From IMG/VR virus record IMGVR_UViG_3300042691_018653, positions 1 through 25,953 of that record: a DNA stretch of 25,953 nucleotides; one strand, 5' to 3'. The notes beneath the pieces were generated by a model, which saw nothing but the letters and a program-made list of their open reading frames with translations, was not told the origin of the DNA and searched no databases. The translations under genes and the position numbers were made by a program. Origin of the DNA: a virus. Each line of letters begins with the position of its first letter. Positions within the stretch are counted from its first letter, which is position 1. Positions 3,717 to 18,754 of the stretch are shown piece by piece.

Positions 3717-4327
3717 GTGCCGACGATGCGATTCGTGGCTGTGCGGCACTGGCGGCGCTGGTTCTCGCGTGCGCGCCTGCCGCGCCCATCGTGGTGGCCT
3801 GGGCAAGAGAGCACGCGCCGAAAGCGCGCGAAGCACTCAAGGGCTGGCCACAGTTCGCCCTCGCTGGCGTCCTGGCTTACGTGGCCATCTTTGGTGTGCC
3901 GCAGCTGCCGGCATTGACCCCCACGCCAGTCATCCCAGTTGTCGTTGTCCAGACTCCGAGCCCAGCCATGCAGGCAGCAGTGTCCGACGTTCATAAGGCG
4001 CTTCTCGGGGCTAACCCCGTGGACCGTGCGGTGTGGGCCCAACTCTGGTCAAACGCTGGCAAGGTCGTTGGCGGAGACGCCACCGACACCGAGGTCGTCT
4101 TCACAGACACGCGAGCACTGCGAGCATTCAACATCATCGCCCTTCGGATCGGCTGGCGTCGGCTCGGAGAAAACGCCCACGGGAAGTACCCAGGGCTGGG
4201 TGAGGCCACTGAGAGAGCCTTCGCCGGTGTGCTCGGGACCGACGTGCAGCCAGTCACCACAGACATTCGCAGCCGATACATCGAGCTCTGCAACGCTCTC
4301 GCGTGGTGTGGCGCAGGAAAGGGCTGA
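3713..4327 (+). CDS. Membrane-anchored hypothetical protein, two TM segments
   Basis: A 204-residue protein with two probable transmembrane helices: about residues 8-29 (Ala/Val/Leu-rich) and about 46-66 (FALAGVLAYVAIFGVPQLPA), separated by a short basic loop. A proline-rich stretch (LTPTPVIPVVVVQTPSPAM) then leads to a soluble alpha-helical C-terminal domain. Such a two-helix anchor plus soluble domain just before a peptidase gene could be a holin-like or spanin-like component, but it has no diagnostic motif. The N-terminal helices favour placement in the inner membrane. Function inferred from position only. Confidence 0.7.
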   Translation: MSADDAIRGCAALAALVLACAPAAPIVVAWAREHAPKAREALKGWPQFALAGVLAYVAIFGVPQLPALTPTPVIPVVVVQTPSPAMQAAVSDVHKALLGANPVDRAVWAQLWSNAGKVVGGDATDTEVVFTDTRALRAFNIIALRIGWRRLGENAHGKYPGLGEATERAFAGVLGTDVQPVTTDIRSRYIELCNALAWCGAGKG

Positions 4328-5232
4328 TGAGCGATCACCTGTTTGGTTACCAACCGAACCCGACCGGCACGGCGGCCTTCGTGGCTTCGCTGGGAGCGAG
4401 GTCGTTGGCGCAGGCCGGGCCGGACCTAGCCTTGGACGATCAGAGGGATGTGTTTCTGGGTCATGCCCTGCTCAAGTGCAGCCCGCGGTGGAAAAGACTC
4501 AACCAGCCAATCGGATCATGCGTCGGGTACGCGTGGGCAATGGCCGTTGACGTGCTTGCTGCGTGTGATGTGGTCCTGCGCGCAGAACCGGAGGCTTACG
4601 GTGGCGAGGTATTTCCGGCGAGCGTGTACGGTTTCTCGCGCGTGGAGGTTCGTGGCGGGCCGAACTACGGCGGCGACGGGTCTTATGGTGGGGCCGCCGG
4701 TAAAGCCGTGACGAAGTACGGCACACTGCACTTCGGCCAGGACTACGGCGGCACCGTCTATAACGCGACATCTGCTGAAATCGAGCGGGAGTGGGGACGC
4801 ACCGGCGTGCCTGACAAGCTCGAGCCCTATGCCGCCGAGCACAAGGTCGCCCAGGTCACACTCTGCACGGACTTCGTGCAGGCCGCCACAGCGATCCAGA
4901 ACGCCTACCCGGTGGCAGTCTGCTCGATGCGCGGCTTCGACATGACGCTACGGGACGGCGTGCTGACTCCCAGTGGACGCTGGGCACACGCGATGCTTTT
5001 CTGCGGCCTGAGGTGGAAGCCAAAGCCGCAGCTCTATCTGGCCAACAGCTGGGGCGACTGCTATCGGGGCACGTACGACGAGACACTGCCGCCCGTGTTC
5101 CGGCGGTCTGGGGGGTGGGTCGATGCCGACGTGTGCACATCCATGCTCAAAGGCGAAGACTCGTTTGCTCTGGCGGGATTCCAGGGCTTCAAGCCTCGCT
5201 CTCTCCCGGACTGGACTGGGGGTGTGCTGTGA
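4327..5232 (+). CDS. Papain-fold (C1A-like) cysteine peptidase
   Basis: A 301-residue protein with the full papain catalytic layout in the right order. Gln60 (oxyanion hole) and Cys65 lie in NQPIGSCVGYAWAM, His221 in GRWAHAMLFCG, and Asn240 in LYLANSWGDCYRG, which is the classic NSWG motif. The ATG overlaps the upstream stop (TGATG), giving a start at MSDHLFGYQPN. No clear signal peptide or long pro-domain precedes the catalytic Cys, so export would need help (holin) or the protein acts inside the cell or on the virion. It sits between small membrane proteins, so a cell-wall-lytic endolysin-like role is one hypothesis. Processing of host or virion proteins is another. The peptidase fold is strongly supported; the substrate is not. 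Confidence 0.88.
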   Translation: MSDHLFGYQPNPTGTAAFVASLGARSLAQAGPDLALDDQRDVFLGHALLKCSPRWKRLNQPIGSCVGYAWAMAVDVLAACDVVLRAEPEAYGGEVFPASVYGFSRVEVRGGPNYGGDGSYGGAAGKAVTKYGTLHFGQDYGGTVYNATSAEIEREWGRTGVPDKLEPYAAEHKVAQVTLCTDFVQAATAIQNAYPVAVCSMRGFDMTLRDGVLTPSGRWAHAMLFCGLRWKPKPQLYLANSWGDCYRGTYDETLPPVFRRSGGWVDADVCTSMLKGEDSFALAGFQGFKPRSLPDWTGGVL

Positions 5233-5483
5233 AGGCGACCACTGCTTTCGGCGCGTTCGTCCTGGCGGTGGTTTTCGCGGCCGGAGATCGCCAGCCATCG
5301 CTTGACGCTGAGCTCGCCTGCGAAGCGGCGAGAGAGATCGTGCGGCTGCAGTCATCCCCTGCCCCAGCACCACCAAAGCCCAACCCTGGCAAGTGCGTCC
5401 GCTGCAACGGCACTGGCAAGGTGAAAAGCGGGGACGGGATCGCCGTGATCCCCTGCCCCGACTGCGACGGAGGCAAGAAATGA
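5229..5483 (+). CDS. Exported small protein with DnaJ-type zinc knuckle
   Basis: An 84-residue protein starting at GTG within a GTGA overlap. The first about 18 residues (MKATTAFGAFVLAVVFAAG) form a signal peptide or N-terminal anchor. A Pro/Ala-rich linker leads to CVRCNGTGK, then CPDCDGGKK: one pair of DnaJ-like CxxCxGxG/CxxCxGG knuckles expected to bind a single zinc ion. There is no J domain or substrate-binding domain, so this is not a DnaJ. It is probably periplasmic or membrane-tethered. The tight coupling to the desaturase gene downstream and the peptidase upstream suggests a shared role; the specific function is unknown. Confidence 0.8.
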   Translation: MKATTAFGAFVLAVVFAAGDRQPSLDAELACEAAREIVRLQSSPAPAPPKPNPGKCVRCNGTGKVKSGDGIAVIPCPDCDGGKK

Positions 5484-6007
5484 GCCACGTCCTGTACTTC
5501 GCCTCTGCATGGATCGCCGCAGAGCTGCTGTCGGGCGCTGTCCACTGGTGGGAGGACAGGTACGGCAACCCTGATTGGCCTGTGCTTGGAAAGTACGTTG
5601 TCCGACCAAACATCGAGCATCATTCTAATCAGACTGCGTTCACCAAGGGCAGCTACCTAGAACGCAACTGGACGGTCATCGCCCCGTCGCTCACGGCCGC
5701 CGCGTTCGCTGCGGCCTTCGGCCAGTGGTGGCTGATGCTCGTCGCGCTGATCGTCAGCCAGGGCAACGAGGTCCACTGCTGGAGTCACCAGCGGTGCAGT
5801 CGGCCCATCCGAGGCCTGCAACTTCTCGGCGTTCTCCAAAGCCCTGAGCAGCACGCAAAACACCACGCTCAGCCATTCGACCGCAACTACTGCGTCATGA
5901 CAGACGCCATCAATCCAGTGCTGCAAGCAGTTCGGTTTTGGCAGGCGCTGGAGTGGTGCGTGGCGTTGTTTGGTGTTCTCCCTCGAGCCGAACGGAGAAT
6001 CGCATGA
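5480..6007 (+). CDS. Kua/CarF/FAD4-family lipid desaturase-like membrane protein
   Basis: A 175-residue integral membrane protein; the ATG at 5480 overlaps the previous stop, and the upstream extension of the frame lies within the zinc-knuckle gene. It matches the lipid desaturase family that includes plasmanylethanolamine desaturase (TMEM189/PEDS1, CarF) and plant FAD4. All eight conserved histidines are present in family spacing: His22 (SGAVHWWEDRYG), His47-His48 (PNIEHHSNQTAF), His99 and His103 (EVHCWSH), and His125, His128-His129 (SPEQHAKHHAQPFDRNYCV). The FWQALEW end also fits. Hydrophobic helices lie around 5-21 and 66-95. The histidines would hold a di-iron centre for dehydrogenation of an acyl or alkyl chain. 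Its presence in a phage cassette of envelope-facing genes is unusual; the substrate is inferred from family only. Confidence 0.88.
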   Translation: MSHVLYFASAWIAAELLSGAVHWWEDRYGNPDWPVLGKYVVRPNIEHHSNQTAFTKGSYLERNWTVIAPSLTAAAFAAAFGQWWLMLVALIVSQGNEVHCWSHQRCSRPIRGLQLLGVLQSPEQHAKHHAQPFDRNYCVMTDAINPVLQAVRFWQALEWCVALFGVLPRAERRIA

Positions 6008-6321
6008 GCCGAGCCGACCTCGAGGCATACGTCTGGCAACGGCTGTCAGCACGACGCTGGGCTGTCGGCCGTGCTGCCGTGGACCGCGTCACGCGTAGGG
6101 TGCTGCGGCGTTGGGAGCGTGAACCAAACCTAAAGGTGATTGCCAGCAGCGTCGAGGAGCAGACGAGGCAGGACGCACAGCTCGGCGTCATCGCGTCATG
6201 GTTGCTGGCGGCGCTGATCAGCGAGATCGTCCGTGCCGTGTGGGAGTGGTGGAGAAAGAGCTACGCCAATCACTGCCTGATCTTCGGCTATCAGCGGGAG
6301 TTGCCAGATGACGACGAATGA
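6004..6321 (+). CDS. Small single-TM hypothetical protein
   Basis: A 105-residue protein starting at an ATGA overlap with the desaturase gene. The N-terminal half is strongly basic (WQRLSARRWAVGRAAVDRVT, RRVLRRWE). One transmembrane helix lies near residues 65-82 (VIASWLLAALISEIVRAVW), followed by a short Trp/aromatic-rich tail that ends DDDE. The basic N-terminus suggests it stays cytoplasmic. Size, single helix and position fit a holin-like or lysis-accessory protein, but no family motif is visible. Its 3' end overlaps the next gene by 14 bases. Confidence 0.68.
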   Translation: MSRADLEAYVWQRLSARRWAVGRAAVDRVTRRVLRRWEREPNLKVIASSVEEQTRQDAQLGVIASWLLAALISEIVRAVWEWWRKSYANHCLIFGYQRELPDDDE

Positions 6322-6613
6322 CGAGCCGAAAGGTTTTCTTGACGTCGCGCTCAAGATTGGGGAAAGGCTCGGGGTTCCGATCCTGATTCTTGCAGCCGTG
6401 TTTCTGATGGCCCGCGAGGCAGGCATGGCACTGTATTCGGGTGCGGTCGTGCCTTTGGTCAAGGCTCACGGCGACTTCCTCGAGGCAACGCAGCACACAC
6501 TCGAGGAAATCGGCGACACCCAGAGGCAGCAGGCCACGACCATGCAGGAAATCGTGGTTGGGCAGAGGGAAATTACTGCCATCCTCGAGGCACGGGAGGA
6601 GGTGAGGAACTAA
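6308..6613 (+). CDS. Small membrane protein with coiled coil (holin/spanin-like candidate)
   Basis: A 101-residue protein. The ATG at 6308 has GGGAG about 7 bases upstream inside the previous gene. Residues about 23-40 (VPILILAAVFLMAREAGMA) form one transmembrane helix. The rest is a long helix with coiled-coil character rich in Gln, Glu and Thr (EATQHTLEEIGDTQRQQATT). One anchor plus a long coiled coil is the layout of inner-membrane spanins and some phage holin-like proteins, but neither is proven. It is the last gene of the envelope cassette; the next gene begins the appendage block with a TAATG overlap. Confidence 0.68.
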   Translation: MTTNDEPKGFLDVALKIGERLGVPILILAAVFLMAREAGMALYSGAVVPLVKAHGDFLEATQHTLEEIGDTQRQQATTMQEIVVGQREITAILEAREEVRN

Positions 6614-6933
6614 TGGCTCACTACTCACTCGCCAGCGGCACGCTCAACATCACCGTGCCACGGGGCACCGAACTGGTCGCCACTCTCGATTTCTCAGACG
6701 ACACGACCGGCTACACGGTCACAAGCGAGGTCTACTCGCTTGTCAGTGGAGCTACGCTGTATTCGCCAACCGTCTCAGTGGTGTCTGCGACAGCAGGCCA
6801 GCATTCGATCACGCTGACAGAGGCTGATACGCAGGATTACGGGTCCGGGTCCTATGGCCTGCGCATTATCCGCGTCGCACCAGGGACAGTGACACGTCGT
6901 CTGATCGACGGCATCCTCGAGGTAAAGCCGTGA
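6613..6933 (+). CDS. Predicted beta-sandwich virion/appendage protein
   Basis: A 106-residue, Thr/Ser/Gly-rich protein with alternating beta-strand pattern (YSLASGTLNITVPRGTELVA, LDFSDDTTGYTVTSEVYS), looking like an Ig-like or jelly-roll fold and ending in a short RRLIDGILEVKP strand. The first line of such proteins (polar strand, PRGTDL..., then a Tyr-rich core) is common in small phage baseplate/fibre-attachment subunits placed just before fibre genes. It is joined to the tail-fibre gene by a GTGA overlap. No enzymatic motif is seen. Structural role inferred from composition and position. Confidence 0.65.
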   Translation: MAHYSLASGTLNITVPRGTELVATLDFSDDTTGYTVTSEVYSLVSGATLYSPTVSVVSATAGQHSITLTEADTQDYGSGSYGLRIIRVAPGTVTRRLIDGILEVKP

Positions 6934-8734: not shown

Positions 8735-9174
8735 GCGACTCGGCATGGTTCGCGGTCGTTGACCCTGCGGGCACGCTCGTCAGCCTCGGCTCCGTCGTGG
8801 CGTCGCCGCTGCCCGCCGGTCTGGACGCTGTCCAGCTGTCGCCCGCCGACGCCGCCGCGATCCGCGAGGGCCATGCGTCGTGGGACGCGGAGACGCGGTG
8901 CGTGGTGATCCTCCCGCCGCCCGTCCCTGTGTTTGTCACCCGCTGGCAATTCCGGCGCTGGCTCGTCGATCACGCGATCACCCCGGAGAGCGTCGAGGCC
9001 ATGATCGCGGCGACGATCTCCGACCCGCTGGAGCGTGCCCGCGCCCTCGTGGACTGGCGAGACGGGCCGATTGTACGGCGGGACCACCCGCTTCTCGTGC
9101 CGATGGCTGCGGCGCTCGGGCTCACCGAGACGGCCGTCGATACAGCGTTCCGCGAGGCGGCGGAGTACGCATGA
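8731..9174 (+). CDS. Tail fibre-associated protein with phage C-terminal helical domain
   Basis: A 147-residue protein. The ATG at 8731 gives an ATGA overlap; the open frame extends upstream only inside the previous gene. The N-terminal half is a small strand-rich domain ([31 protein letters not shown]). The C-terminal half matches a helical domain often found in phage tail-fibre neighbours: [20 protein letters not shown], then [20 protein letters not shown] and [12 protein letters not shown]. Its function is not established; fibre assembly chaperone or structural linker are possible. It overlaps the gmd start by ATGA. Confidence 0.72.
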
Positions 9175-10124
9175 AAGCACTCATCACCGGAATCACCGGC
9201 CAGGATGGTTCGTACCTCGCGGAGTTGCTTCTGGCGAAGGGGTACGAGGTGCATGGCATCGTGCGCCGGTCATCGACCAGCGGAACGGGCCGCATCGACC
9301 ATCTTGCGGGTGGCGTCGTGCTGCACGACGGTGACCTGAACGACGGTGCCGGCTTGGCCCGAATCGTGCGGTCCGTTTCCCCGACCGAGGTCTACAACCT
9401 CGCCGCCCAGAGCCATGTTCACGTGAGCTTTGCGCAGCCGGCATACACGGCCGCGACGACCGGGGTGGGCACGCTCCTGCTGCTCGACGCGGTGCGAGAA
9501 CACGCACCCGCTGCCCGCTTCTACCAAGCCTCGTCGTCGGAGATGTTCGGTCAGGTGGCCGAGACTCCCCAGCGTGAGTCCACGCCATTCCATCCGCGCT
9601 CGCCCTACGGCTGTGCGAAGCTCTACGCCCACTGGATCACGGTCAACTACCGGGAGTCTTACGGACTTCACGCGTCGTGCGGCATTTTGTTCAACCACGA
9701 GAGCCCACGCCGCGGCGAGGAGTTTGTCACCCGCAAGATAGCCAAGGCCGTGGCCCGAATTGCCAATGGCAAACAGCTGCACCTTAAGCTGGGCAACCTT
9801 GATGCGCGGCGTGACTGGGGTTTCGCCGGCGACTACGTCAAGGCGATGTGGCTGATGCTCCAGCAGGACAAGCCAGACGACTACGTCATCGCCACGGGCG
9901 AGACGCACACCGTGCGGTCGTTCGTCTCAGCGGCCTTCGAGCACGTTGGCATGGACTGGAAGGACCACGTCATCATCGACGAGCAGCTGTACAGGCCTGC
10001 CGAGGTGGATCTGCTCCTAGGGGACGCATCGAAGGCAAAGAAGGCACTGGGGTGGAGTCCATCCATGACATTCGTGCAGCTTGTGCACAGCATGGTCGAT
10101 GCCGAAATGGCTTCAGAGTGCTGA
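9171..10124 (+). CDS. gmd: GDP-mannose 4,6-dehydratase
   Basis: Gmd converts GDP-D-mannose to GDP-4-keto-6-deoxy-D-mannose, the branch point to GDP-fucose, GDP-rhamnose and related sugars. The 317-residue protein is an extended SDR with the NADP-binding [15 protein letters not shown] (7-21) and the Gmd-specific [13 protein letters not shown]. The catalytic Ser122/Glu124 lie in SSSEMFG, Tyr146 and Lys150 in [48 protein letters not shown] and [11 protein letters not shown] follow. Length and motifs indicate a complete, probably active enzyme. No GDP-fucose synthase-type reductase is visible in this window, so the next step would rely on host enzymes or genes outside. It ends the fibre block, which suggests supply of a deoxysugar for the predicted glycosyltransferases. 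Confidence 0.96.
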
Positions 10125-10131
10125 GGTATTC

Positions 10132-10443
10132 ATGCCAGAGCGCATGCCGGCCTTCCGTCCTCCGAGGCTGCGTCCTCGTCCGCGAGAGGAGAACAGGCCC
10201 AACGCTCACGAACGGGGCTACTGCGACGAGGCACACAAAGCCTGGAGGCTGGCCGTGCTGACGCGTGACGCATGGCAATGCCAGAAGTGTGGGCGTGTGT
10301 GCAGCAACAGGCGAGAGGCACACGCTGATCACATCAAGCCAATCACGAGCGGCGGCGAGCGGTACGACGTGGCCAACGGTCAGTGCCTCTGCGTGCGATG
10401 CCATGGCAGGAAAACAAGGCGAGAGCAGAACGAGAAATCTTGA
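10132..10443 (+). CDS. HNH endonuclease, small, terminase-proximal
   Basis: A 103-residue protein; the ATG at 10132 follows a GAGG 6-7 bases upstream. The HNH core is complete: Cys50-Cys53 (CQKC), the His-Asp-His segment AHADHIKPI (64-69), Gly-Gly of the turn (ITSGGERYD), Asn82, and Cys87-x2-Cys90-His91 of LCVRCHGRKT. The N-terminal Pro/Arg-rich leader (MPAFRPPRLRPRPREENRP) is typical of the small HNH proteins beside HK97-like terminases, such as HK97 gp74, which assist DNA cleavage during packaging. A homing-endonuclease role is the alternative. Confidence 0.9.
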   Translation: MPERMPAFRPPRLRPRPREENRPNAHERGYCDEAHKAWRLAVLTRDAWQCQKCGRVCSNRREAHADHIKPITSGGERYDVANGQCLCVRCHGRKTRREQNEKS

Positions 10444-11495: not shown

Positions 11496-11599
11496 TTTCT
11501 ACCAGCATGGGGGCCTAGAAAATCTTCAGCACTGTTTCCCTAATAAACCCCTGTCGTTAGAGGGGTGTGCGTGTCCGCAAAAGTCAGCAAGGTTTTCCA
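11496..11599 (+). other. Longest intergenic gap, with a small hairpin
   Basis: About 104 bases between the large HNH gene and terS, more AT-rich than its surroundings. It holds the inverted repeat ACCCCT (11547-11552) / AGGGGT (11561-11566) with an 8-base loop, and no T tract. A promoter for the packaging genes could be here, but I see no convincing -35/-10 pair. A cos or pac site near terS is possible by position only. Confidence 0.4.
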
Positions 11600-12073
11600 A
11601 TGGCTCGCAACGGCCGACCGCCTCAGCCAGCGGCAGTCAAGAAGCTGCTCGGCAACCGCGGCAAGCGGAAGATCCGGCCTGACTTGCCATCCCCGCCCGG
11701 TGTGCCAGACATGCCACCGCGCCTGCTCCCCGACACTGTCGCGGTCGAGAAGTGGCGAGAGCTTGTCCCGATCCTGCAGAGCCTTGGGACGCTGACAATG
11801 TCCGATGGCGAAGCGCTTGCCACGCTTTGTGAAGTGTTCTCTGCGGCGCAGTCCTGCCTCCTGGCCTTGCGCGCCGGCGGGCCGGTGATGCACACCGACC
11901 TGGGAGGGGTGAAACCAAACCCAGCCGGCCCGTTGTACCGCGGATTAGTGGCACTGCAGTCCACGCTAATGAGCGAGTTTGGGCTGACGCCTTCCTCGAG
12001 AGCACGCATCGGTGGCAAAGAGCAGAAGCCGACCGACGAAGTCGAAGAGTTCTTCAAGCTCCACGGCGCCTGA
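11600..12073 (+). CDS. terS: Terminase small subunit, P27-like
   Basis: The small subunit recognises the packaging site and recruits the large subunit. The 157-residue product starts MARNGRPPQPAAVKKLLGNR, the hallmark opening of P27-family small terminases (GRP..P...K.L.GNR.K). A proline-rich linker (PSPPGVPDMPPRL), then helices with WRELVPIL, DGEALATLCEVF and GLTPSSRARI follow; the last is the conserved SPSSRARI-like end. The ATG at 11600 has AAGG about 8 bases upstream; a GTG at 11567 would add 11 residues without a better site. Its 3' end overlaps terL by 62 bases in another frame. Confidence 0.93.
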   Translation: MARNGRPPQPAAVKKLLGNRGKRKIRPDLPSPPGVPDMPPRLLPDTVAVEKWRELVPILQSLGTLTMSDGEALATLCEVFSAAQSCLLALRAGGPVMHTDLGGVKPNPAGPLYRGLVALQSTLMSEFGLTPSSRARIGGKEQKPTDEVEEFFKLHGA

Positions 12074-13622
12074 ACTGACGCCCGAGGGGCAGGCGAAGTA
12101 CGAACGAGTCGTCGCGTTCTTCGAGAAAATCCTGCGGCACTCCAAGGGACAGAACGCGGGCAAGCCGTTCCTCCTGCTTCCCTGGCAGCACCACGTGCTT
12201 CGGGAACTGTTCGGGCGTCTGAACCCCGACGGCACGCGGCAGCACCGTGTCGGGTACATCGAGTTGCCCAAGAAGCAGGGCAAGTCCACGACCCTCGCCG
12301 GCATCGCGCTTTACATGACGGCCTTCGACTCCGAGCCGGGCGCCGAGGTGTACGGTGCGGCCTGTGACCGTGAGCAAGCCGGCATCATCTACCGTGAGGC
12401 AGCGTCGATGGTGCGTGCCTCCCCTGCCCTCTCCAAACACCTCGAGGTGATCGACAGCCGAAAGACCATCGTGCACAAGGCGAGCAACTCGTTCTATCGC
12501 GTGCTCAGTGCAGACGCGTTCCGCGCCGAGGGTCTCAACATCCACGCCCTGCTCTTTGACGAGCTGCACGCCCAGCGGGACCGCCGCCTGTGGGACGCGC
12601 TCCGATACGGCGGCGCGGCTCGTCGGCAACCGCTGCTTCTGTCTATCACGACGGCAGGATACGACCGGAAAAGCATCTGCTGGGAGCAGCACGCCTACGC
12701 CGAACGCTGCATCGCCAAACCGGAAACCGACCCGGCATTCTTTGGCTGCATCTACGCTGCTCCGCCCGAGTGTGGATCAGACGGTTCGTGGAAGGACGAG
12801 CGCGTGTGGAAGATGGCTAACCCTTCGCTGGGCGAGACGATCACGCTGGAGTCATTTGCGGCAGACGCCAGGGAGGCGGACGCCAGCCCCTCAAAGCTGA
12901 ACAGCTTCCTCCGCTACCGGCTCAACGTCTGGACCACCTCCGATGTCCGCTGGCTGTCGCCGGCCGCCTGGGCCAAGTGCTCTCAGCCATTGCGTGACGA
13001 CCTGGCCAAGCGGGAGTGGTATGCCGGCCTCGACCTTGCCAGCACCTACGACCTCTCGGCATTCGTACTTGTCAGCCAAGCGTACGACGGGTCATTCGAC
13101 GCGCTCCCTTACTTCTGGGTTCCGCAGGCCAATGCGGCAGAGCGATCAACCAGGGACAAGATCGACTACATCAGCTGGATTAGGGATGGGCACATTCGTG
13201 CGACAGATGGCAATGTGACCGATTACGACGTGATCAAGCGAGACATCGTCGCCCTTTCCCAGCAGTTCAACATTCGTCAGATCGCCATAGACCGCTGGAA
13301 TGCCACGCAACTGGCTACGCAACTTCAAGGAGAAGGGCTGCAAATCGTAGGTTTTGGGCAGGGATATGGCTCAATGTCATCCCCTGCCAAGCAGCTCGAG
13401 AACCTCGTGCTGTCGGAACGCCTCCGGTGCCAGAGCCCTGTGATGGACTGGATGGCCGGGAACGTTGCAGTGCAGACGGATCACATGGGCAACATCAAGC
13501 CATCGAAGGCCAAGAGCACCGAACGGATCGACGGCATTGTCGCCCTGGTCATGGGGCTGGGCCTCCACGCGGCGGCGACTGCCAAGCCCGCCGATAAAAA
13601 CTGGGACATCCTCGTGCTATGA
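12012..13622 (+). CDS. terL: Terminase large subunit (HK97/Terminase_1-like)
   Basis: TerL is the packaging motor ATPase and headful/cos nuclease. This 536-residue protein has the N-terminal ATPase with Walker A-like ELPKKQGKSTTLA (84-96), Walker B LLFDE (180-184) and coupling motif SITTAGYD (211-218). The RNase H-like nuclease carries Asp341 (AGLDLASTYDLSAF), Asp427 (IAIDRWN) and Asp507 (ERIDGIVALVMGL). The start is the GTG at 12012, inside terS, because the conserved N-terminal region (LTPEGQAKYERVVAFFEKIL) begins only 20 residues later and no later start precedes it. The stop overlaps the portal ATG. Confidence 0.97.
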   Translation: MAKSRSRPTKSKSSSSSTAPELTPEGQAKYERVVAFFEKILRHSKGQNAGKPFLLLPWQHHVLRELFGRLNPDGTRQHRVGYIELPKKQGKSTTLAGIALYMTAFDSEPGAEVYGAACDREQAGIIYREAASMVRASPALSKHLEVIDSRKTIVHKASNSFYRVLSADAFRAEGLNIHALLFDELHAQRDRRLWDALRYGGAARRQPLLLSITTAGYDRKSICWEQHAYAERCIAKPETDPAFFGCIYAAPPECGSDGSWKDERVWKMANPSLGETITLESFAADAREADASPSKLNSFLRYRLNVWTTSDVRWLSPAAWAKCSQPLRDDLAKREWYAGLDLASTYDLSAFVLVSQAYDGSFDALPYFWVPQANAAERSTRDKIDYISWIRDGHIRATDGNVTDYDVIKRDIVALSQQFNIRQIAIDRWNATQLATQLQGEGLQIVGFGQGYGSMSSPAKQLENLVLSERLRCQSPVMDWMAGNVAVQTDHMGNIKPSKAKSTERIDGIVALVMGLGLHAAATAKPADKNWDILVL

Positions 13623-14941
13623 GCGACACACTCCGCGGCGACGTGATCGAGGTGGCGTCTGGCCGAGAATGGCGCATGATCGACCTGCGCGGCATGGACT
13701 GGGTGCCGGAGAACCGAACCGTGGCGGGCGTTCGTGTGACGCCTGAGACGGCGCTTCAGTGTTCCGCGTTCCTGGCTTGTGTCAGGGTGATTTCGGAGAG
13801 CGTGGCAAGTCTGCCGCTGCACCTGTACGAGCGCCTTGGAAACGGCGACCGAGCTAAGGCAGAAAGCTCTCCGCTCTACCGCCTGCTGCACCGGCAGCCC
13901 AACTCGTGGCAGACGGCCTTTGAGTTCCGCGAGCAGATGACCGCGCTCTACCTCCTGTACGGGCAATCGTTCGCCGAGGTGATCGGCTCTTCGCGTGTCG
14001 GTGCGGTTGCTGAGATGAAGCCGCTCCACCCGTCCAACATGACCGTCGAGCGTGTCGAGAACGGTGCCCTTCGCTACCGATACCGTGAGCCCGGCGGCAC
14101 AGGCAAGGAAACCGTCTACCGCCAGGACCAGATCTTCCACCTTCGGTTCCTCTCGCTCGACGGCATCAACGGCGTGATGCCCACCACAGTCTGCCGGGAC
14201 GCCATCGCTCTCGCGCGGGCACTCGAGCAACACGGCGGCGCTTTCTTCGGAAACGGCGCCAGACCTGGCGTCGTCCTCGAGAGCGACAACCCGATCCCAA
14301 ACGAAGCGGCCGAACGTCTGCGGGAATCCTGGGAGCGCATGCACCGCGGCGCCGACAGGGCTTTCCGCACGGCTGTCCTCCCGAACGGCGTGAAGGCCAA
14401 GGAGCTCAGCGGAAGCAACGAAGCGGCCCAGTACCTGGAAACGCGGCAGTACCAGGTCATCGAGATCTGCAGGGCGTTTCGCGTTCCGCCGCACATGATC
14501 CAAGACCTGACCCGCAGCACCTACAGCAACATCGAGGTGCAGGGCACTGAGTTCGTTCAGCATTGCCTGCTGCCGCACCTCAAGCGTTGGGAAGCGGCGA
14601 TCTCCCGGGATCTTATCGCCGATGACGACCGCTACTTCGCCGAGCACAACGTCAACGGCCTGCTGCGTGGAGACTCCGCCGCCCAGTCTGCGTTCGTGAC
14701 TGCGATGCTCGACAGGGGCGTGTACGACATCGACGAAGCCAGGGCGTACCTCGGTATGGCTCCGCTGCCGGCAGACGCGGGAAAGCTGCGACTGGTTCCG
14801 CTGAACATGCAGACCGTCGAGAGCGCCGTGGCTGGCCCGCCGCCGCAGCCCCCTGCGGAGCCGGCACCTGCCATCGAGGTCGAGGACTCGCCGGAGGACG
14901 ACGTGGAGGATCAGTCAGAGGTGCCTGCCGATGGTGTATGA
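13619..14941 (+). CDS. Portal protein, HK97 family
   Basis: The portal forms the dodecameric DNA channel at the capsid vertex, docking terminase and later the connectors. The 440-residue product shows HK97-portal features in order: TPETALQCSAFLACVRVISE and ASLPLHLYER near the N-terminus, LYGQSFAEVI, QDQIFHLRFLSLDGINGV, and LEQHGGAFFGNGARPGVVLE. Near residue 290 comes FRVPPHMIQDLTRSTYSNIE with QGTEFVQHCLLPHLKRWE. The C-terminal 50 residues are Pro/Glu/Asp-rich and probably flexible. ATGA overlap with terL on one side; its last 11 bases overlap the protease gene. Confidence 0.96.
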   Translation: MSDTLRGDVIEVASGREWRMIDLRGMDWVPENRTVAGVRVTPETALQCSAFLACVRVISESVASLPLHLYERLGNGDRAKAESSPLYRLLHRQPNSWQTAFEFREQMTALYLLYGQSFAEVIGSSRVGAVAEMKPLHPSNMTVERVENGALRYRYREPGGTGKETVYRQDQIFHLRFLSLDGINGVMPTTVCRDAIALARALEQHGGAFFGNGARPGVVLESDNPIPNEAAERLRESWERMHRGADRAFRTAVLPNGVKAKELSGSNEAAQYLETRQYQVIEICRAFRVPPHMIQDLTRSTYSNIEVQGTEFVQHCLLPHLKRWEAAISRDLIADDDRYFAEHNVNGLLRGDSAAQSAFVTAMLDRGVYDIDEARAYLGMAPLPADAGKLRLVPLNMQTVESAVAGPPPQPPAEPAPAIEVEDSPEDDVEDQSEVPADGV

Positions 14942-17970: not shown

Positions 17971-18010
17971 AAGCGGGCGGCGGGTGGCCCCCGTCGCCCG
18001 TTTCGCGTTT
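17971..18010 (+). terminator. Rho-independent terminator-like hairpin after capsid module
   Basis: CGGGCGGCGGG (17974-17984) pairs with CCCGTCGCCCG (17990-18000) with one G-T pair and a TGGCC loop. The stem extends through AAG/TTT to about 14 bp, and a T-rich run TTTCGCGTTT (18001-18010) follows. This is the strongest terminator-like structure in the window, placed after the capsid and decoration genes. Confidence 0.75.
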
Positions 18011-18022
18011 CCGGGAGGCACG

Positions 18023-18754
18023 ATGCTGATCAAGGTCGGCGACACCACGGTGGAGATCCGTGTGCACGCCGTGCTGTCCATGCCGCGGCTGTCGTTCACG
18101 TCCAACCACTTCGGCTGGTGGAAGGCTTTGATGCCTCTCGGCATCGAGCCGACGATGGGCACCGGTGCCTTCTGGGATCAGGTGAATAGCCGCATCTTCG
18201 AAGGAGTGATGGACTCCAACGAGTACATCCTGACGCTGGACTACGACAGTTTCATTCTCAAGGAGGACATCGAGCACCTTTTCTCGCTGGCGCTGACATT
18301 CGGGTGCGACGCGCTCGCGCCGATCCAGACTAAGCGAGAAGACGGACGCCCGATGTTCACCATGCTGGGGACGCTCGATGATCCTCCGGCGGACGGCACC
18401 AACCACGTGCCGAGGGAGTGGTTTGCGGAGCCGGTCCAGGAGGTGGATGCCGCGCATTTCGGCTGCACAATCATCAGCACGAGGGCGCTGCGTCGTGCGA
18501 TCAAGCCTTGGTTCTGGTCTCAGCCGGACCCTCAGGGAGGGTGGAACGAAGGTCGCGTCGATCCCGACATCTGGTTCTGGAAGCAGTGGAAGAAGAGCGG
18601 GAACCGGTGCTTCGTCACCCCGCGTGTCGTGATCGGCCACGGCGAGTACGTGATCACTTGGCCTGGCCGTGAGCTCGCCAACCCCGTCTATCAGTACGCC
18701 ACCGAGTTCAACGCCCAAGGCAAGAAGCCTGAGAGCATCTGGAGGGCAGGCTGA
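18023..18754 (+). CDS. Predicted GT-A glycosyltransferase inserted in the structural operon
   Basis: A 243-residue protein. The ATG at 18023 has GGGAGG about 5 bases upstream; the longer frame from 17984 would run into the terminator stem. N-terminal strands (VHAVLSMPRLSFTSNHFGWW) and the EYILTLDYDSFI segment, with DxD at Asp73/Asp75, indicate a GT-A glycosyltransferase. Later DAAHFGCTIISTRALRRA and DIWFWKQWKKSGNRCFVTPR fit the acceptor half of such enzymes. It is unrelated in detail to the pair at 1486-2972. It is located between capsid and connector genes, just after a terminator, which is unusual. Donor and acceptor unknown; virion glycosylation is a hypothesis. Confidence 0.8.
   Translation: MLIKVGDTTVEIRVHAVLSMPRLSFTSNHFGWWKALMPLGIEPTMGTGAFWDQVNSRIFEGVMDSNEYILTLDYDSFILKEDIEHLFSLALTFGCDALAPIQTKREDGRPMFTMLGTLDDPPADGTNHVPREWFAEPVQEVDAAHFGCTIISTRALRRAIKPWFWSQPDPQGGWNEGRVDPDIWFWKQWKKSGNRCFVTPRVVIGHGEYVITWPGRELANPVYQYATEFNAQGKKPESIWRAG

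Follow-up and report, generated by a model that had tools for sequence, protein, structure and literature searches.

A putative PF10520 lipid desaturase encoded by a tailed-phage fragment, and its relatives in phages and prophages

The virus DNA of IMG/VR record IMGVR_UViG_3300042691_018653, positions 1 to 25,953 (the window, by which we mean the whole stretch of 25,953 nt that was analysed), contains a short gene that an earlier, sequence-only reading took for a phage-borne lipid desaturase of the family that includes CarF. This raises the questions of whether the gene belongs to the phage, which branch of the family it represents, and what its product might do to an infected cell.

We observed that the 175-aa translation contains nine histidines, at position 3 and at the eight positions given in Table 1, and that these eight, which had been claimed as the family histidines, all lie where the sequence-only reading placed them. 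The family assignment was likewise confirmed by the profile comparison proposed with it: PF10520 (Lipid_desat) matched the protein essentially end to end (E 6.5e-39; profile positions 1-174 of 175), with a score of 134.2 bits where the cutoff is 26.4. FA_hydroxylase was a second and weaker Pfam match (25.4 bits, below its own cutoff), PF00487, the classical FA_desaturase family, was absent from the Pfam matches up to E 1, and none of the PHROGs families matched the desaturase. None of 200,000 shuffled versions of the protein had the spacing of the eight histidines plus Asp, and this spacing occurs a single time in the six frames of the window. Moreover, the eight histidines, Asp26 and Cys138 were invariant in all 64 aligned homologues from phages, prophages and cells, each of which matched PF10520, and dN/dS between phage pairs was about 0.07-0.36, which indicates that the desaturase evolves under purifying selection. 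The protein would appear to be a minimal, integral-membrane enzyme of the PF10520 family.

Table 1. Coordinates and properties of the desaturase gene and of other genes in the window
Feature	Coordinates	Strand	Remarks
Papain-like (C1 fold) peptidase	4303..5232	+	likely start ATG 4327; upstream partner also in L002, L033, L038
86-aa small protein	5223..5483	+	hydrophobic N-terminus, CxxCxGxG...CxxCxGG zinc-ribbon-like tail; weak sub-cutoff Anti-TRAP match; ATGA overlap with desaturase start
Lipid_desat (PF10520) gene	5480..6007	+	175 aa; His22, 47, 48, 99, 103, 125, 128, 129; Asp26; Asn44 at the site of PEDS1 F118, Gly57 at that of H131
Small putative membrane protein	6004..6321	+	coupled to desaturase stop by ATGA
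Small protein, one hydrophobic segment	6308..6613	+	no family match
phrog_1084 protein (unknown function)	6613..6933	+	homologue in phage L044
HNH endonuclease (PF01844)	10126..10443	+	gene of like type after desaturase in Pirellulaceae prophages
Terminase small subunit (PF05119)	11567..12073	+	
Terminase large subunit	12012..13622	+	thousands of phage matches; 56-57% identity to Pirellulaceae copies, best 39% in 200 Pseudomonadota
Portal protein	13619..14941	+	homologous to portals of desaturase-carrying Pirellulaceae prophages

The description of the gene as phage-borne holds: besides standing in a virus record, the contig encodes both terminase subunits, a portal and a homologue of the phage prohead protease. 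The window is a fragment of a tailed phage. The start of the desaturase overlaps the upstream stop, and its stop overlaps the next start, in each case as ATGA, and these overlaps indicate translational coupling on both sides. We looked within the window for a redox partner of the desaturase and rejected the 86-aa CxxC neighbour, which looks zinc-ribbon-like (weak Anti-TRAP match) and not like a ferredoxin or thioredoxin. Elsewhere in the window, a nucleotide-sugar epimerase gene (9171-10124; phrog_540, E 1.7e-86) lies near two glycosyltransferase-like ORFs (1486-2088 and 2082-2972), and these genes may possibly serve in surface-sugar modification; a 256-aa protein that matches no Pfam family is encoded at 17984-18754, inserted in the head/tail gene block.

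Relatives of the desaturase are encoded at at least 106 loci on viral contigs of up to 390 kb, and 21 of 21 rechecked viral records scored over the family cutoff. Conserved homologues were found in other phages, and the sequence-only reading, which named their absence from related phages as grounds for its refutation, is relieved of that objection. The PF10520 family is rare among the sampled genomes, with scores over the cutoff in 5/398 Pseudomonadota, 1/145 Verrucomicrobiota, 6/199 Acidobacteriota, 2/247 Bacteroidota and 12/199 Pirellulaceae, and a homologue of the desaturase was not found on plasmids. In a tree of 75 proteins, from a set without plant sequences, the window protein fell in a cluster of 31 rows (support 86/74) made up of 23 phage contigs, seven contigs from planctomycete genomes that represent prophages or phages, and one 5.2 kb contig of a Pirellulaceae MAG (L114). 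Within it, a 13-row, all-phage subset that includes the window had support of 98/91, and the pair formed by the window and phage contig L002 had 100/99. Judging from this tree, the branch appears to be all but confined to viruses and prophages. In this phylogeny against CarF, a comparison that had been proposed earlier, the window protein clusters with phage and prophage copies and does not join the CarF-type clade, which is split from the rest of the tree with 100/99 support. The family has probably entered phages on three or more occasions, because two further copies fall outside the window's cluster, that of Erythrobacter phage vB_EliS-L02 within a clade of Sphingomonadales prophages (100/93) and that of the 595-kb phage LR756511 within the nine-His clade (97/87).

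The desaturase turns up repeatedly in the late gene blocks of phages unrelated to one another. We examined four planctomycete prophages, whose chromosomes (8.44 and 6.53 Mb) are each a single contig. In all four, the gene directly upstream of the desaturase encodes a trypsin-like protease whose N-terminus resembles a signal peptide, and the terminase large subunit and portal are encoded downstream, with an HNH endonuclease in between in three. In the Pirellulaceae chromosomes the desaturase precedes the genes for terminase, portal and prohead protease, and the window's versions of these three proteins are homologous to their planctomycete prophage counterparts (25-42%). PF10520 copies of Sphingomonadales were observed inside Mu-like prophages (L124, 4437-8213; L158, 5080-8954; L125; L128); in L124 the desaturase lies exactly between terminase and portal, and in a second Mu-like Sphingomonadales prophage it immediately precedes Mu-like packaging genes, the terminase among them.

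Several carriers are temperate, because a tyrosine integrase is encoded just downstream of the desaturase on the opposite strand (phage contigs L007 and L029) or integrases occur elsewhere on the desaturase contig (L040). The window and L002 share a collinear block consisting of a glycosyltransferase-like gene, small genes, the papain-like peptidase and the desaturase; since the two desaturases are 81% identical and the flanking genes 22-39%, the desaturase would seem either to be much more conserved than its surroundings or to have been transferred between them. It is not universal, as the genomes with the closest terminases (G1504, G1476, G1471, G1461 and G1427) have no PF10520 match. The gene is found in bona fide phage genomes, is conserved there and is dispensable in some relatives, and these are the properties by which phage auxiliary, or moron, genes are recognized.

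The same terminase comparisons bear on the host. At least 5 Pirellulaceae genomes encode a terminase large subunit with 56-57% identity to that of the window, against a best value of 39% among 200 Pseudomonadota, and we consider Planctomycetota to be the probable host phylum. Our confidence in this assignment is only moderate because the Pirellulaceae loci with the closest terminases resemble partial elements and lie in genomes where PF10520 had no match. Similarity to the terminases of named phages was uninformative, reaching up to 47% among the matches listed, to phages of many Firmicutes. In three Pirellulaceae elements (L219, L220 and L221) a serine recombinase accompanies a terminase that shares 55-56% identity with that of the window, and no portal was recognised after the terminase; these elements are possible phage satellites or decayed prophages.

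With regard to fold, AlphaFold (from a 62-sequence alignment) gave a confident, all-helical model of the desaturase, with pLDDT 95.6 and pTM 0.89. The nearest solved structure was that of yeast Scs7p, a membrane di-metal fatty-acid hydroxylase, at a non-significant level (E 0.6, TMq up to 0.47), and a sequence search for a solved homologue returned none. Foldseek placed two viral models nearest, that of a giant-virus lipid desaturase at E 8.4e-6 and TMq 0.65 and that of an unnamed protein at TMq 0.70.

We lean towards reading the protein as a late-expressed di-iron membrane enzyme that oxidises or desaturates acyl chains of host phospholipids and so remodels the envelope. The eight histidines would hold the di-iron centre of an integral-membrane enzyme, and this centre, given O2 and electrons, would oxidise a lipid chain. 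The substrate would most likely be the acyl chains of host membrane phospholipids, desaturated or, less likely, hydroxylated, and would differ from the alkyl ether chain used by PEDS1. Gene order suggests late expression, the desaturase presumably being read with the late genes from a one-direction phage gene block; together with an envelope-directed protease and small membrane proteins, it could then remodel the host envelope late in infection or in the lysogen. We infer the di-iron chemistry, the acyl substrate, the timing and the benefit alike. PF10520 proteins are kin to hydroxylases, so that the product could instead be a hydroxylated lipid, or the substrate something other than a lipid.

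Envelope remodelling is suggested by the exported proteases encoded near the desaturase, papain-like in the window and trypsin-like in the Pirellulaceae phages. The papain-like neighbour had been named in the sequence-only reading, and it is supported: Cys65, His221 and Asn240 are invariant in four homologues (window, L002, L033 and L038), and cathepsins were the top Foldseek matches of its model, which is of low confidence. A trypsin-like protease with a predicted membrane anchor is encoded upstream of the desaturase in L100, L102, L107, L111, L116, L118 and L121 as well as in the four prophages; the upstream position is taken by a CAP protein in L019 and by an HExxH protein without a family match in L066. 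This recurrent pairing with unrelated exported hydrolases suggests, from gene context, that the desaturase may act on the envelope. Against this, the protease pairing is absent in the L004, L019 and L081 types, other phages have no such neighbour at all, and, as described above, the closest-terminase genomes carry no PF10520 gene. We also observed two unrelated membrane-anchored CxxC proteins encoded just upstream of the desaturase (L040, 6917-7840; L076, 3912-4841; L048, 1730-2215; L049, 7476-7961). By eye they have CxxC and a plausible cis-Pro, they had no match in Pfam, PHROG or PDB, and as candidate electron donors to the desaturase they are a lead only.

A different purpose is possible, if on the unlikely side: as a lysogenic-conversion (moron) gene, the desaturase could alter lipids in a way that keeps superinfecting phages out or shields the lysogen, and lysis or virion production would not be its target. 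The copies in chromosomal prophages, the nearby integrases and the different insertion places in unrelated phages would suit such a gene, but in the sampled prophages it sits in the structural/late block, which is normally silent in a lysogen. More speculatively, and in our view rather improbably, this may be a phage-dedicated PF10520 lineage carrying out a lipid oxidation known from no cellular member, which together with the adjacent exported protease (papain-like, trypsin-like or other) would form a conserved envelope-remodelling module in phages of Planctomycetota and other freshwater bacteria, serving for example in the exclusion of rival phages or the timing of release.

As to the chemistry, the sequence-only reading had also named a trans-unsaturated lipid as an example; an action like that of plant FAD4, which introduces a trans (delta-3) double bond into a phosphatidylglycerol acyl chain, is possible but rather unlikely. 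FAD4 is a PF10520 protein that likewise lacks the ninth histidine discussed below (PMC8960569), and its activity is boosted by the thiol protein PRXQ (PMC12456178); a few related phages (L040, L076, L048 and L049) have the membrane-anchored, thioredoxin-like CxxC proteins upstream. However, Pfam, PHROG and PDB offer no family match for those proteins, the ninth site is usually Arg in plants and is Gly in the phage, and sequence cannot predict the position of a double bond.

Vinyl-ether lipid had been offered as an example of the product, and this part of the sequence-only reading was not supported. A ninth histidine (mouse H131, CarF H113) sets PEDS1/CarF apart, and plants and Alphaproteobacteria are without it (PMC9131029; PMC8960569). 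It is required in CarF, and mouse PEDS1 needs it for full activity; only carriers of the ninth histidine complemented carF, whereas homologues without it, from plants and Alphaproteobacteria, failed (PMC9131029). Published mutagenesis places D100 and F118 likewise among the residues that define PEDS1/CarF against other PF10520 proteins: the Phe is important for PEDS1 activity, and D100 was, of 28 further residues tested, the sole one whose loss abolished activity (PMC8960569). In mouse PEDS1, D100, F118 and H131 lie 4, 22 and 35 residues past the first histidine (H96), and the same spacing in the window protein leads to Asp26, Asn44 and Gly57, so that of these three residues the Asp is retained, whereas Phe and the ninth histidine are missing. 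As a positive control, the Acidobacteriota copies L180, L182 and L185 carry F and H at those sites (HH context PFREHH...H), as does L181; the ninth histidine is thus present in these four and in phage LR756511. The NCBIfam CarF equivalog NF045946, with a cutoff of 500 bits, scored the window protein at 87.7 bits and L180 at 215.5, and the first ~60 positions of the CarF model are missing in the window protein. It is therefore very unlikely that the window protein is a true plasmanylethanolamine desaturase making vinyl-ether plasmalogens in the infected host, as it has neither the ninth histidine nor the Phe, its equivalog score is low and the CarF-type clade is separate, for all that the Pfam family, the eight essential histidines and Asp26 are common to both. 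On the first three of these, plasmalogen synthesis was dropped as the leading reading.

The copy in the 595-kb uncultured phage LR756511.1 (L059, 4001-4459) is another matter: it has the ninth histidine and the Phe of PEDS1 (EFQEHH...H), lies within the CarF-type clade, and is a candidate phage-encoded plasmalogen desaturase. Pirellulaceae chromosomes (L194-L200) hold a distinct, cellular type of PF10520 protein, in which the motifs PFRVHH and TNGD occur and the ninth-His site is Cys or Arg, and in G1452 and G1372 the cellular and phage types occur side by side in one genome.

It is scarcely credible that the window gene is a normal host gene picked up by chance or through misassembly and without a phage role: a small share of bacteria do carry PF10520 genes, but the purifying selection argues against it, and host contamination or misassembly was rejected in view of the viral loci, the operon-embedding ATGA overlaps and the phage/prophage clade.

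A virus-dominated clade, present in late blocks of unrelated phages and in complete planctomycete chromosomes, offers a case in which the rewriting of host membrane lipids by phages can be tested. Its members of about 175 aa are small, minimal forms of an enzyme family that is hard to purify, and copies with and without the plasmalogen-specific histidine provide a natural contrast.

Virus-encoded desaturases of membrane lipids have been described before, namely the fatty acid desaturases of cyanophages (Roitman 2018, cited in PMC11480375) and of sea-ice viruses (PMC7300359), both proposed to alter the host membrane. Those enzymes are of the acyl-CoA/acyl-lipid type with three His motifs, whereas PF10520 is another family with another arrangement of histidines. 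The phage lipid desaturases already known come from the classical fatty-acid desaturase family only; the literature searched contained no paper linking the PF10520/CarF/FAD4 family, or the lipid desaturase domain, to phages, and a phage enzyme of the CarF/FAD4 family is unreported there. The closest named viral structure, the Harvfovirus lipid desaturase domain protein A0A3G5A308 (the giant-virus model above), is from a giant virus known from metagenomes and is 21% identical. UIS25202.1 of Erythrobacter phage vB_EliS-L02 is 38.8% identical, has all eight histidines and is encoded between PhoH and the portal, but it is annotated 'hypothetical' and belongs to the Sphingomonadales prophage clade, apparently a separate acquisition. 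Plant FAD4, likened here by its described features alone, shares PF10520, the eight histidines and the lack of the ninth, and differs in being a plastid enzyme with usually Arg at the site of Gly57. CarF/TMEM189 (PEDS1) shares PF10520, the eight histidines and the essential Asp at +4 from the first of them, and is set apart from the window protein by the latter's Gly57, Asn44, missing N-terminal ~60 positions and separate clade.
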